From Antarctobacter albus (GTDB lineage Bacteria; Pseudomonadota; Alphaproteobacteria; Rhodobacterales; Rhodobacteraceae): a DNA stretch of 64,000 nucleotides. Where the stretch lies: the NCBI RefSeq assembly GCF_900101505.1, contig NZ_FMZI01000004.1, forward strand, positions 239,670 to 303,669, read 5' to 3'. Positions 9,040 to 49,836 of this stretch are shown here, piece by piece. The stretch's first letter is position 1. Each line of letters opens with the position of its first letter. A model generated the notes under the pieces. The model was not told the DNA's origin. It saw only the letters and a list, made by a program, of their open reading frames with translations, and made no database searches. Made by a program: the position numbers and the translations under genes.

Positions 9040-9114
9040 GCGGGCGTAGCTCAGGGGTAGAGCATAACCTTGCCAAGGTTAGGGTCGGGCGTTCGAATCG
9101 CCTCGCCCGCTCCA
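9040..9114 (+). tRNA. tRNA-Gly (GCC), copy 1
   Basis: Cloverleaf with seven-base acceptor stem GCGGGCG/CGCCCGC, D-arm TAGCTCAGGGGTAGAGCA, anticodon stem AACCT/AGGTT around a loop carrying GCC, the T-arm motif GTTCGAATC, discriminator T and an encoded CCA. The anticodon GCC reads glycine codons GGC/GGT. Identical in sequence to the copy 143 bases downstream. Confidence 0.97.
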
Positions 9115-9182: not shown

Positions 9183-9257
9183 GCGGGCGTAGCTCAGGGG
9201 TAGAGCATAACCTTGCCAAGGTTAGGGTCGGGCGTTCGAATCGCCTCGCCCGCTCCA
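9183..9257 (+). tRNA. tRNA-Gly (GCC), copy 2
   Basis: Exact duplicate of the preceding 75-base tRNA, including the encoded CCA. The two are separated by 68 bases of unrelated spacer and are probably processed from one transcript. Confidence 0.97.
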
Positions 9258-34357: not shown

Positions 34358-34795
34358 TCATGCGCGGAAGGCCTGTAAGCCGGATTCTGTTCTTGGGCGG
34401 GTTTCCCCGCCCTCAGACGACCATTCCTCTGGACCGCGCGTTGCCACGCGGCTCTAGCTGCCAACCCGGATCGCCGGGGCCGAAGCGGCCCTGCGCCCGA
34501 GGGCGCGCACGATCCCTATTCGGCATTGCTCCCGGTGGGGCTTGCCATGCGGGCGCTGTTGCCAGCCCCCCGGTGGGCTCTTACCCCACCGTTTCACCCT
34601 TACCGCCACAGTCTCCTTCGGTTTCACCAGAAGCGGACTTCCAGTGCGCACCTCCGGTGCGACGGCGGTTTCATTTCTGTGGCGCTTTCCGTCAGGTTGC
34701 CCTGCCCGGGCGTTACCCGGCACCGGTGCTTCGGTGAGTCCGGACTTTCCTCTCGCCAATGGCAAGCGGCCGTCCGGCCTTCCGCGCACGCCCCA
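34358..34795 (-). ncRNA. rnpB: RNase P RNA (M1 RNA, bacterial type A)
   Basis: Catalytic RNA of RNase P, which trims 5' leaders of tRNAs. On the minus strand the 5' end carries the universal GAGGAAAGTCCGGACTC (about 34738-34754), and the 3' end carries ACAGAATCCGGCTTACAGG (near 34375-34390). Helix P1 is formed by GCGCGGAAGGCC at the 5' end (near 34788) pairing with GGCCTTCCGCGC at the 3' end (near 34361). Ends are approximate, placed from P1. Confidence 0.95.
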
Positions 34796-42278: not shown

Positions 42279-44228
42279 ATGAGCCAGATTTCCCTGACAT
42301 TTCCCGACGGCTCGAAACGTGACTTCGACAAGGGCGTGACCCCTGCCGAGGTGGCGGCGAGCATTTCCAAATCGCTTGGCAAGAAAGCGATCTCCGCCAC
42401 CCTGGGCGAGGCCCACTGGGACCTGCAATGGCCCATCGAGGAAGATGCGCGCATCGCGATCAACACGATGGCCGATGACGCGCCCGCGCTGGAACTGATC
42501 CGGCACGACCTCGCGCATATCATGGCCCGCGCCGTGCAGGAGATCTGGCCCGACGTGAAGGTCACCATCGGCCCGGTGATCGAGAACGGCTGGTACTATG
42601 ACTTCGACCGGGCAGAGCCCTTCACGCCCGAGGATCTGGGCGCGATCGAAAAGAAGATGAAAGAGATCATCAACCGCCGCGATCCGGTGACCACCGAGGT
42701 CTGGGACCGCGAGCGGGCGGTGAAATACTACGAGGCCAACAACGAGCCCTACAAGGTCGAGCTGATCGAGGCCATTCCCGGCAACGATCCGATCCGCATG
42801 TACTGGCACGGCCACTGGCAGGATCTCTGCCGTGGCCCGCACCTGCAGCACACCGGCCAGGTCCCCGGCGACAGCTTCAAGCTGATGAGCGTGGCGGGCG
42901 CCTACTGGCGTGGCGACAGCGACCGGCAGATGCTGCAACGCATCTACGGCGTCGCCTTCAAGAACCGCGACGACCTGAAAAAGCACCTGCACATGCTGGA
43001 AGAGGCCGCCAAGCGCGACCACCGCAAGCTGGGCCGCGAGATGGACCTGTTCCACATGCAGGAAGAGGCGCCGGGCCAGATCTTCTGGCATCCGAACGGC
43101 TGGAAGATCTACACCACGCTGCAGGATTACATGCGCCGTCAGCAGACGCGCGGCGGCTATGTCGAGGTGAACACGCCGCAGGTCGTCGACCGCAAGCTTT
43201 GGGAACGCTCGGGCCACTGGGAAAAGTACCAGGAAAACATGTTCATCGTCGAAGTGGACGAGGAACATGCCCGTGAAAAGGCGATCAACGCGCTCAAGCC
43301 GATGAATTGCCCCTGCCACGTCGAGATCTTCAAGCAGGGCCTGAAGTCGTACCGCGACCTGCCCCTGCGCATGGCCGAATTCGGCTCTTGTGCGCGCTAC
43401 GAACCCTCGGGCGCGCTGCACGGGATCATGCGGGTGCGCGGCTTTACCCAGGACGACGCGCATATCTTTGCCACCGAGGACCAGATCGCGGCAGAAACCG
43501 AGCGTTTCATCGGGTTCCTGGCCGGGATCTATCGCGACCTCGGCTTCCCCTCGTACAAGATCAAGTTCTCGGACCGGCCCGATACCCGCGCCGGATCGGA
43601 CGAGATCTGGGACAAGGCCGAAGAGGCGCTCTTGACCGCAACACGCAAGGTGACGAACGACATCGAGCTGAACCCGGGCGAAGGCGCCTTTTACGGGCCC
43701 AAGCTGGAATTCGTTCTGACCGACGCGATCGGACGTGACTGGCAGTGCGGCACCTTCCAGGTGGATTTCGTCCTGCCCGAACGTTTGGACGCGCATTACA
43801 TCGGCGCCGATGGCAACAAGCACCGCCCCGTGATGCTGCACCGCGCGACGCTGGGGTCCTTCGAGCGTTTCATCGGCATCCTGATCGAGGAACATGCCGG
43901 CAAGCTGCCCTTCTGGCTGGCCCCGCGCCAGGTGGTCGTGGCCTCGATCACCTCGGAGGCGGATGACTACGTGGCCTATGTGGTCGAGACGCTGACCAGG
44001 GCCGGTGTCCGGGCAGAAGCCGACATTCGCAACGAAAAGATCAACTACAAGGTCCGCGAGCATTCGGTCGGCAAGGTCCCGGTCATCCTGGCCGTCGGCC
44101 ACCGCGAGGTCGAGGAGCGCACCGTCACCGTGCGTCGCCTGGGTGAAAAGCAGACCCAGGTCGCCACGCTGGACGAGATCACCGCCGAGCTTGGCCGTGA
44201 CGCGACCCCGCCCGATCTGCGCGCCTGA
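42279..44228 (+). CDS. thrS: threonyl-tRNA synthetase
   Basis: 649 residues. TGS domain at 1-60, editing domain ([35 protein letters not shown]), class II catalytic core with zinc-ligand cysteine in [13 protein letters not shown], motif 2 [30 protein letters not shown], motif 3 [18 protein letters not shown], and the C-terminal anticodon-binding domain. Charges tRNA-Thr and clears mischarged serine. The ATG at 42279 lies 113 bases from the divergent MFS gene. Confidence 0.98.
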
Positions 44229-44239
44229 CAGCCGCTCCG

Positions 44240-44267
44240 GTTGCAAGGATGACGTTGCAAGGATGAC
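44240..44267. repeat. 14-base tandem duplication after thrS
   Basis: GTTGCAAGGATGAC occurs twice head to tail between the thrS stop and its terminator. Probably a slippage duplication. Confidence 0.9.
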
Positions 44268-44270
44268 AAG

Positions 44271-44298
44271 GGCCGTCCCCTCGGGGGCGGCCTTTTTT
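44271..44298 (+). terminator. rho-independent terminator of thrS
   Basis: Stem GGCCGTCCC / GGGGCGGCC with one G-T pair and a short loop, followed by six Ts. Confidence 0.85.
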
Positions 44299-44626
44299 GA
44301 AATTCAAGCGACGGAAACCCCGACTTGACGCGTTACAGCCCTGACGAAACCCGTGAAGAGACCTGCCCGCCTGCCCGGGCGGGCCATGCGTCCTGTAACA
44401 TTCTGCCATGCAGCATGGGCATACGGGCAGCTATCGTTACAAATCCCCCCTTCCAGCGGCAGGAATCCCCCCTCTGACCTCTCGGGCACGACACGGGGGC
44501 TGACGGGCGCGTGATGCACAGGCCCGTGTATCGCGGCAATCCTTCCAGCGCGGCACCCTGCAGTCACCGACGGGCAAATCGGCCCGCGGCCAAGTTTCGC
44601 AACGTGCAAACACCGGAGGAACCCAC
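44299..44626. other. 328-base gene-free region upstream of the bufferin operon
   Basis: No coding frame with support. It carries three copies of the hexamer TGTAAC: plus strand at 44394-44399, and its complement GTTACA at 44332-44337 and 44436-44441. It also holds a perfect seven-base hairpin GCCCGCC/GGCGGGC (44365-44384, no T-run). TGTAAC-like -35 elements are used by several ECF sigma factors, so this is the likely control region of the operon, but I could not match a full -35/-10 pair. Confidence 0.45.
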
Positions 44627-44935
44627 ATGTCCTACACTCTGAAATCCGCCGCCCTCGTCGGCGCCGTCGCCGCCGCCATCGCCGCAACCGGCGCCCATGC
44701 CGACGAAATGGCACAGGAAAAGTGCTACGGCGTCAGCCTCGCCGGCGAAAACGACTGTGCCGCAGGCCCCGGCACCACCTGCGCCGGCACATCGACCGTC
44801 GACTACCAGGGCAACGCCTGGACGCTGGTCGACGCGGGCACCTGCACCGAGATCGAGCTGCCGGAAATGGCGGACGGCACCGCGCGCATGGGCTCGCTGG
44901 ATGCGCTGGAACGCGACCTGCCGATGGACTCGTAA
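44627..44935 (+). CDS. bufA1: DUF2282 bufferin-type RiPP precursor
   Basis: 102 residues. Signal peptide-like leader [25 protein letters not shown] (cleavage expected after residue 25). The mature part is a DUF2282 peptide: [33 protein letters not shown] and [10 protein letters not shown], with cysteines at 33, 44, 52 and 73. Known bufferins of this family are modified on cysteine to thiooxazoles by a DUF692 enzyme, exported and bind copper. An acidic tail ([20 protein letters not shown]) follows. First gene of a four-gene operon with DUF692, DUF2063 and DoxX genes, in the standard order. Modification sites and metal are inferred from family, not shown by sequence. Confidence 0.88.
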
Positions 44936-45012
44936 GGTCCATGTCACGGGGCGCCGCCGCGCGCGCGCCCCGTGGCCTCTTGCCCTTTCACGCCCCGATC
45001 CGAGTCAGAGCG

Positions 45013-45861
45013 ATGTTCGACACGACCAGCCCCCTCCCCCCCTTGCCCGGCGTCGGCTACAAGCCGCAGCACTATTCGGCCATCCACAACGATCCCGCCC
45101 CCGTGGGCTGGTTCGAGGTCCACGCCGAGAACTACATGGGCGATGGCGGCAGGCCGCTGGCACAGTTGCGCGCGCTGTCCGACCGCTTTCCGATTTCCGT
45201 ACATGGTGTCGGCCTGTCCATCGGCGGGCCGGACAGGCTGGACGCGGAGCACCTTGCCCGGCTGAAACATCTCGTCGGCTGGCTGAACCCGGCGAGCTTT
45301 TCGGAACATCTCGCCTGGTCGACCCATGACAGCGCCTTTCTGAACGACCTGCTGCCACTGCCCTATACCCCTGCCACGCTGGCCCGCGTCTGCGACCACG
45401 TCGACGAAGTTCAGGAGGCGCTGGGGCGGCGAATGCTGCTGGAAAACCCCTCGAGCTACCTGGCCTTTGCCGAAAGCACGCTGGACGAGACGGACTTTCT
45501 GAACGAGGTCGTCCGACGTACCGGCTGCGGGCTCTTGCTGGACGTGAACAACGTTTTCGTCTCGGCCACCAACCTGGGCTACAGCCCGCAGGACTACATC
45601 GCGCGCTTTCCGATGGCGGCGGTGGGCGAAATCCACCTGGCGGGCCATGACGAGGATCACGACGATTTCGGCGCGCCACTGCTGATCGACAGCCACGGAC
45701 GCGAGGTGGCGGACCCGGTCTGGGCCTTGCTGGACATGGTGCTGGATCGCGCCGGGCCACTCCCGCTGCTGATCGAATGGGACAACGACGTGCCGGACTG
45801 GCCCGTATTGGCGGCAGAGGCCGCGCGGGCAGCCGGGGCGCTGGCGCGCTTGACGGCGTGA
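45013..45861 (+). CDS. bufB: DUF692 multinuclear non-heme iron oxidative enzyme (MNIO), BufB
   Basis: 282 residues, TIM-barrel MNIO, the MbnB/BufB family that oxidises cysteines in precursor peptides. Family motifs are intact: [94 protein letters not shown] and LIEWDNDVP. The His, Glu, Asn and Asp residues in these motifs supply the iron ligands. The ATG at 45013 lies 77 bases beyond bufA1. A weak CAGAG is the only ribosome-binding match. Confidence 0.92.
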
Positions 45862-45866
45862 AGATC

Positions 45867-45901
45867 GGGGCTCCGCCCCCGCGTTATTTGGACAAAGAAA
45901 C
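45867..45901. repeat. dispersed GC-rich repeat, copy 2 (shortened, inverted)
   Basis: GGGGCTCCGCCCCCG followed by TTATTTGGACAAAGAAA, the reverse complement order of the longer copies at 12996 and 59662. It sits between bufB and bufC without disturbing either frame. Confidence 0.55.
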
Positions 45902-45916
45902 ACGAAGGAGCGCGCA

Positions 45917-46663
45917 ATGGCCAGCCATGCCGAGACAGGTTTTCGCACTGCGCTGCTGCGCGGGGACGCGCCTGTTCCCAAGGGCCTGACCGATGGTGCG
46001 GGGCGTCCCGCCGGGCGGCGGTTCAACGTCTATCGCAACAACGTGGCCGTGGCCCTGCGCGAGGCGCTGGAAGTCGGCTTCCCGGCGGTGGCGAAACTGA
46101 TCGGACCCGAGAATTTCGCCCGCGCGGCAGGGATGTTCCTGCGCGCCCATCCGCCCGCCAGCCCCTTGATGATGCACTACGGCGCGGGTTTTCCCGAGTT
46201 CCTGGAACGGCTCGAGGCGCTGCGCGGGATCGGCTACCTGGGTGATGTGGCACGGATGGAACTGGCCCTGCGCCAGAGCTATCATGCCGCGGACGCGCCG
46301 GCGCTGGATGCCACGCGTCTGGCGGGGATGGATGAGGCTGCGCTCATGAGGGCGCGCCTGGTGCCGGCGCCGGCCCTGCGGCTTCTGCGATCAGACTGGC
46401 CGGTGCTGTCGATTTACCGGTTCACGATGGAACCGGGCCAGCCCAAGCCCCCGGCCCGGGCCGAGGCGGTTGTCATCACCCGCCCGGATTTCGACCCCTT
46501 GCCACATCTTCTGCCGCCGGGCGGGGCCGGTTTCCTTGCCGCGCTGATCAAGGGCGGGACATTCGGCGCGGCGGTCGAAACCGCAGGCCCCGACTTCGAC
46601 CTTTCCGCCACGCTCTCGCTGCTGTTGCAGCAGGGCGCCTTTTCCGACCTGCTCACCGATTGA
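45917..46663 (+). CDS. bufC: DUF2063 partner protein of the MNIO enzyme, BufC
   Basis: 248 residues. The DUF2063 N-terminal domain is well conserved: FRTALLRGD, RFNVYRNNVAVALREALEVGFPAVAKLIGPENFARAAGMFLRAHPPASPLMMHYGAGFPEFLE and YLGDVARMELALRQSYHA. This family binds and presents the precursor to the DUF692 enzyme. AAGGAG precedes the ATG. Eight bases separate it from the DoxX gene. Confidence 0.92.
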   Translation: MASHAETGFRTALLRGDAPVPKGLTDGAGRPAGRRFNVYRNNVAVALREALEVGFPAVAKLIGPENFARAAGMFLRAHPPASPLMMHYGAGFPEFLERLEALRGIGYLGDVARMELALRQSYHAADAPALDATRLAGMDEAALMRARLVPAPALRLLRSDWPVLSIYRFTMEPGQPKPPARAEAVVITRPDFDPLPHLLPPGGAGFLAALIKGGTFGAAVETAGPDFDLSATLSLLLQQGAFSDLLTD

Positions 46664-46670
46664 GGATTCG

Positions 46671-47237
46671 ATGGACCGTCTCATCTCCCTTCACAATGCG
46701 ATCTTTGCCCCTGTCGAACGCCTGGGCAATCAGGTGATCCCGCTGCTGGCGCGGCTGATCTTTGCGGCGACACTCTTGCGGTATTACTGGAATTCCGCCG
46801 GAACGAAGGTCTGGGATCGCAAGGGCGAAGAGGGGATCCTGGATTTCTTCACGCTGGAATCCGGCACCTATGCGCAGATGTTTCCCAAGGCCTTCGAGGC
46901 GGCGGGCTACAATACTGCCAACATGGGGTTTCACCATGATCTGATTGCCATTGCCGGAACCTACGCGGAATGGCTTTTGCCCCTGTTGATCGTCCTCGGC
47001 CTGTTCACGCGGCTGGCGGCGCTGGGGATGATCGGCTTTGTCACCGTGCAGACCTGGGTCGACGTGACCGGGCATGGCGGCACGCTGGGCGCGCTCTTCG
47101 ACACACGCTATGGCCTGATCGACGAGCGCGCGCTCTGGATCGTCTTGCTGATGGTCATGGTGATCCGCGGCGCAGGCGTTCTGTCGCTGGACCGGCTGTT
47201 CGGACTGGCGCCTGTCGCGCGCCAGGTCCCGGCCTGA
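46671..47237 (+). CDS. DoxX-family membrane protein of the bufferin operon
   Basis: 188 residues, four predicted membrane helices: LLARLIFAATLLRYYW, LIAIAGTYAEWLLPLLIVLGLFTRLAALGMIGFV and RALWIVLLMVMVIRGAGVLSLDRLFG. DoxX proteins are found as the last gene of many DUF2282-DUF692-DUF2063 operons, where they may take part in redox handling or export. Convergent with the next gene; four bases separate them. Confidence 0.88.
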   Translation: MDRLISLHNAIFAPVERLGNQVIPLLARLIFAATLLRYYWNSAGTKVWDRKGEEGILDFFTLESGTYAQMFPKAFEAAGYNTANMGFHHDLIAIAGTYAEWLLPLLIVLGLFTRLAALGMIGFVTVQTWVDVTGHGGTLGALFDTRYGLIDERALWIVLLMVMVIRGAGVLSLDRLFGLAPVARQVPA

Positions 47238-47241
47238 GCGA

Positions 47242-47610
47242 TCAGAAATGCGCCTTGGGCTCGTCGGGTTTGCCCGCCGCGAGCGCCAGCACCCCGCCCA
47301 GCCCCGCGAAGGCGATGGGGAACATGGTAAAGACGTTGAAGCCGAAGGCATGGAACATCGCCGCCGCCGAAAGCAGCAGCAGAATTCCGCCCCACAGTGC
47401 GCGCGCCTTGGCCATCGCGCCACCGGCAATGGCCAGCAGGGGTGCCAGGATCGACACGATGCGCACCGTCTGGGGATCGTCGAACATGCCGAACATCTCC
47501 TCGACCTCGCCCACGTTCTTGACCAGTTCCGTGTAGCCGAAGCCGAAGAAGCCCACGATCATGCCGATCACACCGGCGATGATGCCCAGTGTCAGTGCCG
47601 CGTTGCGCAT
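47242..47610 (-). CDS. small four-helix membrane protein, unknown function
   Basis: 122 residues, four hydrophobic stretches (LTLGIIAGVIGMIVGFFGFGY, IVSILAPLLAIAGGAM, ALWGGILLLLSAAAMFHAF, MFPIAFAGLGGVLALAA). Not recognised as a named family beyond small membrane proteins of DUF4064 appearance. Starts 13 bases beyond the stop of the ArsC-like gene, so it may be cotranscribed. Confidence 0.7.
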   Translation of the reverse strand: MRNAALTLGIIAGVIGMIVGFFGFGYTELVKNVGEVEEMFGMFDDPQTVRIVSILAPLLAIAGGAMAKARALWGGILLLLSAAAMFHAFGFNVFTMFPIAFAGLGGVLALAAGKPDEPKAHF

Positions 47611-47623
47611 TTTCCTGCCTCCT

Positions 47624-47941
47624 TCAAACCACGCCGAGGGCCGACTGGGCCGCCTTGTCCCACCCCAGCACCATGCGCTGATCCTCGACGAAGAGCGGAC
47701 GTTTCATCACCGTCGGATGGGCCGCGATCAGCGCGGCGGGCTCCATCGCGCGCGTATCCTCGTCGAAATCCCGCCAGGTGGTCGAGCGCGTGTTGACCAG
47801 CTTGTCCCCGAACTGCGCCAGGGCGCGATCCAGGATCTCGGCCGGAACGCCCTCTTCGCGGACGTCGACAAATGTTGCCGCCGGCAACGCCTTGCGTGCC
47901 TTTCGGCAGGTATCGCAGGTCTTCAACCCGTAGATGATCAT
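47624..47941 (-). CDS. ArsC/Spx-like thioredoxin-fold protein
   Basis: 105 residues. MIIYGLKTCDTCRKARKAL gives the CxxC redox site (CDTC), and MKRPLFVEDQRMVLGWD is the closing motif of the YffB/ArsC-like family. The second and third arsenate-reductase arginines are not clear, so it may be a reductase of another thiol substrate. The ATG at 47941 has only a weak GGGA upstream. Confidence 0.85.
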   Translation of the reverse strand: MIIYGLKTCDTCRKARKALPAATFVDVREEGVPAEILDRALAQFGDKLVNTRSTTWRDFDEDTRAMEPAALIAAHPTVMKRPLFVEDQRMVLGWDKAAQSALGVV

Positions 47942-48930: not shown

Positions 48931-49836
48931 TTACGCGGCCTGCAACCTGCGCGCCTCTTCCCCTGCCAACCGGATCAGCAGCTTCATGAAGGGTTTGTCC
49001 AGGTCCTCGGTCCGCACGGCCGCATATAGGCGCCGCGTCAGCCCCTCTTTCGTCAGCGGCCGCGTGACATAATCCGAGCTGTATTTCACCTCGCGGACGA
49101 CCCAATCCGGCAGGACCGACACGCCGCGGTTGGACGCCACCAGCAACAGGATCACCGCCGTCAGTTCCACCTGCCGGATCGCCGCCGGTTCCACCTTGGC
49201 CGGGGTCAGGAGCTGGCTGAAGATATCCAGGCGTGAGCGGTCCACCGGGTAGGTGATCAGCGTCTGGCCCCGGAAATCCTCGGCCTCGATGAAATCCTTT
49301 TCCGCCAGCGGATGCTGAGAGGAGGCGACGAAAACCGGGCTGTAGTCGAAGAGCGGCACGAAGGTGACGCCAGCCAGGTCTTCGGGATCCGAGGAAATGA
49401 CCACGTCCACCTCTTCCTTCATCAGCGCGGGCAGCGCGTCAAAGGCCAGACCGGGGCGAATGTCCACGTCCACGTCGCCGAATTTCTTTCGGAACCCTTC
49501 CAGCACCGGGAACAACCATTCGAAACAGGCGTGGCATTCAATGGCGATGTGCAGCCGTCCGGATTTACCCTCGCGCAGCCCCGCGAACTCGGCCTGCACC
49601 GCCTCAACCTGCGGCAGGATCTGTTCCGCCAGCCGCAACAGGCGAAACCCCGCCGCCGAGAGTTTCATCGGCTTGGACCGGCGCACGAACAACTCGACCC
49701 CAGCCTGGTCCTCCAGCCCCTTGATCTGGTGGCTGAGCGCCGATTGGGTGATGTTCAGCATCTCCGCCGCCCGCGCCACGCCGCCCGCGTCATGGATCGC
49801 CTTGATGGTCCGAAGATGCCGGAATTCGATATGCAT
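48931..49836 (-). CDS. metR: LysR-family regulator MetR
   Basis: 301 residues, LysR helix-turn-helix at 4-63 (IEFRHLRTIKAIHDAGGVARAAEMLNITQSALSHQIKGLEDQAGVELFVRRSKPM), then an effector domain with several stretches that match E. coli MetR: LHIAIECHACFEWLFPVLEGFRK, LFDYSPVFVASSQHPLAEK, TLITYPVDRSRLDIF and RLYAAVR. MetR activates methionine biosynthesis with homocysteine as coinducer. Divergent from metF, its expected target. Confidence 0.9.
   Translation of the reverse strand: MHIEFRHLRTIKAIHDAGGVARAAEMLNITQSALSHQIKGLEDQAGVELFVRRSKPMKLSAAGFRLLRLAEQILPQVEAVQAEFAGLREGKSGRLHIAIECHACFEWLFPVLEGFRKKFGDVDVDIRPGLAFDALPALMKEEVDVVISSDPEDLAGVTFVPLFDYSPVFVASSQHPLAEKDFIEAEDFRGQTLITYPVDRSRLDIFSQLLTPAKVEPAAIRQVELTAVILLLVASNRGVSVLPDWVVREVKYSSDYVTRPLTKEGLTRRLYAAVRTEDLDKPFMKLLIRLAGEEARRLQAA

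Follow-up and report, generated by a model that had tools for sequence, protein, structure and literature searches.

In the stretch of Antarctobacter albus DNA analyzed here (contig NZ_FMZI01000004.1, positions 239,670 to 303,669 of the forward strand; 64,000 nucleotides, hereafter the window), a four-gene bufferin operon, bufA-bufB-bufC-doxX, is preceded by a pair of tandem palindromes that recurs before the same operon in other Rhodobacteraceae. Among peptides modified by MNIO enzymes, bufferins make up some of the largest families known. Our explanation, to which we would assign a probability of roughly three in four, is that this is a Buf1 bufferin operon that is independent of sigma-F and is driven by an activator acting at the tandem palindromes. 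In Caulobacter, two bufferin operons depend instead on the extracytoplasmic function (ECF) sigma factor sigma-F, which is restrained by NrsF, via the promoter GTAACC-N16-CGAA (PMC3511200). In the literature we searched, we found no description of how bufferins are switched on without sigF-nrsF, nor, in the titles and abstract openings covered, which left out most subscription journals, of such an element before bufferin genes.

Tandem palindromes upstream of bufA

The element, whose sequence in the window is TGACGGGCGCGTGATGCACAGGCCCGTGTATCG, follows a family consensus made of TSACR-N4-YGTGA, one base, a less complete NCACR-N4-YGTGA, and then N-T-N-G, with the centres of the two palindromes 15 bp apart (Table 1). 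In the upstream half-site the commonest letters over 99 loci are TCAC followed by A or G, while in the presumed -35 region only the T at the first position (97 percent) and the G at the third (80 percent) are well conserved. Further downstream, a YANNNT hexamer begins at column 54 or 55 in 36/44 loci of our first set and in 47/55 independent loci, and at any other column between 34 and 74 in at most 5 loci. The distance between the element and this -10-like hexamer is thus nearly fixed, whereas that to the start codon varies (93-169). If YANNNT is taken as the -10, the -35 would coincide with the T-N-G just after the proximal palindrome, the bufA transcription start would lie near 44566, and the palindromes would be centred at about -58 and -43 from this predicted start, where class II activator sites are found. 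Such a location suggests that the element is a candidate activator site. In the mechanism we propose, bufA would be transcribed without sigma-F or NrsF, and an activator with essentially one target would bind the palindromes, just upstream of a poor -35, and recruit RNA polymerase; the start, the activation and the inducing signal of bufA transcription are all ones that we infer.

Table 1. Parts of the upstream element, the operon and its usual neighbor, with window positions.
Feature	Position	Strand	Basis
Conserved promoter element: distal palindrome, proximal palindrome, then ATCG	44501-44533	+	profile, 41.8 bits
Distal palindrome TGACG-N4-CGTGA	44501-44514	+	
Proximal palindrome GCACA-N4-CGTGT, imperfect here	44516-44529	+	
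Weaker upstream half-site ACACG, 10 bp from distal palindrome	44491-44495	+	column frequencies, 99 loci
Presumed -35 region adjoining proximal palindrome	44531-44536	+	column frequencies; role assigned from -10-like element
-10-like element CACCCT	44554-44559	+	family YANNNT, nearly fixed distance from palindromes
bufA, DUF2282 bufferin precursor, 102 aa	44627-44935	+	PF10048, E 2.8e-24; translation
bufB, MNIO (DUF692) maturase, 282 aa	45013-45861	+	PF05114, E 1.5e-105; NF050167
bufC, DUF2063 partner protein, 248 aa	45917-46663	+	PF09836, E 7.8e-23
doxX, DoxX-family membrane protein, 188 aa	46671-47237	+	PF07681, E 2.1e-6, 28.7 bits (cut-off 23.6)
thrS, threonyl-tRNA synthetase, usual upstream neighbor, outside the system	42279-44228	+	named by eye

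The same palindromes could be read as the operator of a repressor, with derepression by metal rather than activation, and tandem palindromes are a common form for cooperative repressors. Here, however, they sit upstream of the presumed -35 and leave the -35/-10 region uncovered, and the -35 is poorly conserved, with no consensus sigma-70 promoter seen in the region, all of which makes a repressor unlikely in our view, although it deserves to be kept in mind. Far less probable is that the element acts in RNA, as a leader structure such as an attenuator or a riboswitch, with the palindromes forming hairpins. The R/Y pairs do co-vary at some loci (the distal pair is A-T in 4/44 and 9/55), but this is equally expected of a DNA palindrome, and one-sided changes are as common or commoner; the near-fixed spacing is, furthermore, to the -10-like element and not to the start codon. 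We dropped the RNA reading because the predicted fold of 44496-44626 is no better than that of shuffled sequences (z -0.67, with 53/200 shuffles as good) and no Rfam match lies near the element. Least credible of all, in our opinion, is that the box is a functionless remnant of shared ancestry of the thrS-buf intergenic region. Although thrS is in the fetched neighborhood of 94/100 loci with the box, in several columns of the box a single letter accounts for 95-100 percent of the 99 loci, which span many genera, whereas most columns on either side are close to background, and one genome (G068, below) has a second box past the start of bufA. We give little weight to the 6 box loci whose fetched DNA lacks thrS, given that some loci are short.

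Two other arrangements were considered and set aside. A MerR-type reading, in which the dyad would occupy a long spacer and the trailing GTGAAT would serve as -10, was dropped in view of the conserved YANNNT about 25 bp further down, and a TGTAAC...GTTACA pair further upstream is found in part of the loci only. Variation in the number of palindromes was also seen: contig 18 of genome G012 (L139/L020) carries two tandem bufA copies, the first of which has a single palindrome upstream (CTAACGGCCCTGTGAATAG), as if one 15-bp unit were missing, and G022 (L120) looks similar.

Occurrence of the element and of sigma-F/NrsF

We seeded a 34-column profile with eight sites chosen by eye. Of 51 bufA upstream regions, it converged on 29, all scoring at least 23 bits; the remaining 22 score no more than -0.6, and 6.1 bits is the best score among 255 shuffled upstreams. 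Above 15 bits, the box precedes bufA in 44/63 scored family loci, where it lies between -103 and -169 relative to the start codon, and in 53/72 further named loci, 93-145 bp before it, and in none of 2086 control windows from the further loci and none of 1440 shuffles. Because the 51 training loci are included among the 63, independent testing comes from the 72 further loci and from the pattern scans described below. The 63 come from 65 family genomes with a precursor, as G014 and G082 were missed by our precursor pattern (G014 has a box site in the pattern scan, and G082 has NrsF), and six loci of other families were likewise missed and left unscored; the further named set was drawn from 569 confirmed relatives, of which the best 80 were taken; 79 of these, all but L198, were scored, and 7 were set aside as duplicates. 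Slightly lower thresholds were used for the column frequencies (>13 bits) and for the pooled 135 loci and the tree (>12.9 bits).

Scanning of whole genomes gave a consistent picture. A degenerate pattern with at most one mismatch occurs in 34/147 relatives, at 35 sites versus 4 for the pattern written backward, and in none of the 61 relatives without a DUF2282 match. Thirty of these sites were fetched, and 28 show bufA by our precursor pattern; one more (L100) has a DUF2282 match just downstream. At L105 (G070 contig 4), a site occurs without bufA, which may be chance. A slightly longer pattern, run on 395 family genomes at least 95 percent complete (a set that shares genomes with the previous one), was found in 105 genomes at 106 sites, versus a single backward-control hit. 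We fetched 30 of these sites, and every one is at a bufA: 29 precede the gene, and one, in G068, lies past its start. In the latter genome (L237, contig 9, 1501-1533) the box lies about 300 bp past the first bufA cysteine codon, probably between bufA and bufB, and a weaker site (23.1 bits) also precedes bufA; it is possible that G068 bufB may have its own activator-dependent promoter.

Within the window the pattern matches exactly once, and a further match with 3 mismatches overlaps this site on the opposite strand (with 3 mismatches allowed, 0.40 are expected); in the whole genome the bufA site is the only match without mismatches, with one other at 1 mismatch and two at 2. These near matches (L054, L055, L056) lie under long open frames, as does the true site, hence this check does not discriminate between them. 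The element, in short, occurs about once per genome.

With regard to sigma-F, NrsF (PF06532) has no match in the window genome, and no GTAAC[CGA]-N15-17-CG[AT][AT] promoter was found in the 600 bp before its bufA. NrsF is present in 25/147 relatives by genome-wide search, and a promoter of the sigma-F type lies between -75 and -89 at 8/10 scored NrsF-positive family loci; in one genome (G088) NrsF is on another contig than bufA. The sigma-F promoter pattern is also matched at 2 of the 44 box loci, in one case at -249 and in the other spanning the box. The distribution over the 63 family loci is 44 with the box and no NrsF, none with both, 10 with NrsF and no box, and 9 with neither (Fisher 7e-7, a value that takes no account of relatedness). 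Pooling all 135 loci gives 100 with the box, 18 with sigF and 17 with neither, and no sigF- or nrsF-like gene is found in the fetched DNA of the 100 box loci, where it should be noted that NrsF was sought genome-wide for the relatives and in fetched DNA only for the named loci. The box and sigF/nrsF are therefore mutually exclusive in the loci examined. When the box and sigF states are placed on a tree of 134 MNIO proteins, 4 changes suffice, whereas 200 shuffles require 17 on average (range 14-18). This was a quick tree, with 22/131 inner branches well supported, but even if these branches alone are trusted, the sigF group needs at least 3 changes. The thrS gene is in the fetched DNA of 5/18 sigF loci and in none of the other 13, several of which are short, so that both control systems can occupy the same chromosomal neighborhood.

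Our search for the regulator covered 123 neighborhoods. The gene clusters present in at least four of them are led by the operon genes and thrS, and the two clusters exclusive to box-less loci are nrsF- and sigF-like (named by eye and by locus scan). Two candidates were considered. Relatives of a LysR-type gene (window 48931-49836) occur about 3.8 kb downstream in 21/123 neighborhoods, of which 19 have the box, and an ArsR-like gene (named by eye) occurs in 13/123, all with the box, at about 3.6 kb upstream. Neither was adopted as the likely regulator, as both lie far from bufA and are missing from the fetched DNA of most box loci; their bias toward box loci was discounted because the set consists very largely of such loci.

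Several observations weigh against an activator at the palindromes. No regulator gene adjoins the operon in any of the 123 neighborhoods, which leaves the activator hypothetical. A plain scan of 44200-47700 found no sigma-70 consensus promoter, even though its absence also fits a promoter that needs help; the -10-like element of the window is CACCCT and not TANNNT; and the proximal palindrome of this genome is imperfect (CACA/CGTGT). At up to 3 mismatches, the window genome gives 62 hits versus 9 for the backward control, an excess that we tentatively put down to coding composition, with weaker further targets being possible. Lastly, at 17/135 family loci both the box (above 12.9 bits) and sigF/nrsF are absent, which means that the box is not general. 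These loci include L170, L176, L182 and 14 others, three of them from Celeribacter, and a third mode of control is possible there.

A bolder reading, to which we would give somewhat less than even odds, is that roseobacters have a previously undescribed activator protein with a regulon consisting essentially of the bufferin operon alone, which would bind the tandem palindromes next to the bufA -35 and take the place of sigma-F/NrsF, with about four switches on the maturase tree by parsimony. Mutually exclusive control systems before one operon offer a clean case of regulatory rewiring, and the bufA site could both serve as bait with which to capture the regulator and report on its signal.

The bufferin operon and its product

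The first-pass annotation had placed four plus-strand genes here, in the order precursor, MNIO enzyme, partner and DoxX, and had called them a bufferin-type operon, and both statements hold. The four products exceed their Pfam cut-offs, the reading frames are open throughout, and the gaps between genes measure 77, 55 and 7 bp. Precursor, MNIO, DUF2063 protein and DoxX are in fact the core of bufferin clusters, and Buf1 and Buf2 bufferins have been collected by the thousands (PMC12452194). Judging from sequence, the operon is a canonical Buf1 (DUF2282) cluster of an ordinary, known kind, since this core set is published and a DUF2282 match over cut-off is found in 86/147 related genomes, showing the precursor family to be common. 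PF05114 and PF10048 have one match each in the whole genome (5.26 Mb, 36 contigs).

BufB scores 378.8 bits against NF050167, the NCBI model for "MNIO family bufferin maturase" (MNIO_BufB; cut-off 310), which identifies it as a BufB-type enzyme, and only 58.8 bits against the MbnB model (cut-off 325). In a search of the PDB its best match was 3bww (E 5.8e-41, best stretch residues 30-217), with lower scores for 8hci (TglH) and for MbnB structures. The 3bww entry is an MNIO of Histophilus somni, and in HvfB residues N175, D242 and H244 are essential (PMC13419390). By our own reading of the 3bww alignment, these would map to DVNN (177-180) and DSHG (226-229) of BufB, both of which are intact, as the first-pass annotation had said of the enzyme motifs. 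A mixed-valent di-iron cofactor and a 5-thiooxazole product have been described for such enzymes (PMC13419390 and PMC13097082).

BufC, in which PF09836 spans residues 9-96, is a DUF2063 partner of PME type 1, a type that mostly measures 250-260 residues and has been described with an RRE-type domain. It matches the HvfC model NF050145 weakly (38.4 bits, cut-off 142), and a PDB search with it returned two weak, irrelevant hits only. DoxX, similarly, is weak against the HvfX model NF050144 (22.8 bits, cut-off 80).

The precursor, BufA, carries the DUF2282 signature and four cysteines, at 33, 44, 52 and 73 when counted on the translation, exactly where they had been reported, after a predicted signal peptide of about residues 1-25 (a hydrophobic stretch and an AHA-DE junction, both recognized by eye only). 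It scores weakly against the NCBI BufA2 model (18.4 bits, cut-off 60), consistent with a Buf1 rather than a Buf2 precursor; a PDB search with BufA gave no match, and the precursor of Mameliella sp. CS4 is 96 percent identical to it. In Buf1, it is the central cysteines that are modified, and the two outermost ones are joined in a disulfide (PMC12452194, Fig. 3 legend). By position, then, Cys44 and Cys52 are those expected to be modified and Cys33 and Cys73 those expected in a disulfide. The earlier expectation of thiooxazoles on the precursor cysteines thus stands for the central pair and not for the outer one: thiooxazoles are not expected on all four, because the published Buf1 modifies the central two only. 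Four cysteines are found in 61/63 and 72/72 family precursors, and five in the other 2, even though these counts are not independent, as the pattern used to pick precursors requires these cysteines.

Beyond Cys73 there are 29 residues, 8 acidic and 2 basic, that end in RDLPMDS, in agreement with the acidic tail noted at first pass. An R/K-D/E-L/I/V-P motif is present within the last 14 residues of 55/63 family precursors and 71/72 further named ones (a set in which it is favored, because LERDLPMD was among the six query stretches used to find these loci), and is absent there from all 15 precursors belonging to other families of the class. Tails have a median length of 27 residues in both family sets and of 18 in these 15. 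A GSL/GST/GSM motif before the tail motif is more widespread (55/63 and 68/72 in the family, 12/15 outside it). On the basis of these sequences the acidic tail is a family-wide trait, and the C-terminal GSL...RDLP signature is possibly a recognition or stability element.

Put together, BufB, as a mixed-valent di-iron MNIO, and its partner BufC would oxidize Cys44 and Cys52 of BufA to 5-thiooxazoles in the cytoplasm; modified BufA would leave by the Sec pathway, after which Cys33 and Cys73 would form their disulfide, and the mature product would sequester copper in the periplasm, with DoxX as a probable accessory membrane protein. The chemistry, export and copper binding we infer by analogy with characterized relatives. 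It could be argued that the operon serves mainly against another metal or stress, such as gold, chromate, cadmium or oxidants, given that bufferin operons are also known as gold-induced genes (PMC12452194) and that Caulobacter sigma-F genes respond to chromium and cadmium (PMC3511200). Caulobacter Buf1, however, is described as a copper chelator that aids growth in copper (PMC12452194), and we consider a main role other than in copper to be rather improbable. Copper induction as in Caulobacter is nevertheless not simply transferable to this organism, because its genome has no NrsF and the promoter looks different.

As to the surroundings, thrS and bufA are separated by 398 bp, within which the box region stood out when relatives were compared. 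A terminator-like hairpin between bufB and bufC (45866-45881, plus strand) may be chance or may lower bufC-doxX expression, with 5 terminator-like sites in the 3.5 kb around the operon versus 2.2 expected. Among 10 other window reading frames included in the Pfam scan, 8 had a match at up to E 0.001 (1 of them below cut-off) and 2 had none. An RNase P RNA (class A; 34360-34785, minus strand) and two tRNA-Gly (GCC) genes (9040-9114 and 9183-9257, plus strand) are ordinary features of the window.

Comparison with known systems

The closest parallel is the Caulobacter vibrioides Buf1 operon (CC3254-CC3257), which has the same order, DUF2282-MNIO-DUF2063-DoxX (PMC3511200). Its control differs: where the Caulobacter operon has the sigma-F promoter and adjoining sigF-nrsF, here there is no NrsF, and tandem palindromes are found instead. 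The gig operons, named for gold-induced genes, are bufferin clusters according to PMC12452194. Clusters for the oxazolin/fontiphorin (EGKCG) peptides, of the proposed class of captophorins, likewise pair an MNIO with a DUF2063 partner and yield 5-thiooxazoles (PMC13097082), but their precursor is of another family, with EGKCG repeats and not DUF2282. In the methanobactin system (MbnABC), lastly, an MNIO also acts on cysteines and the product also binds copper (PMC12452194). It differs, however, in having no Sec signal peptide, a different partner (MbnC) and an oxazolone-thioamide product, and BufB resembles its enzyme model only weakly.

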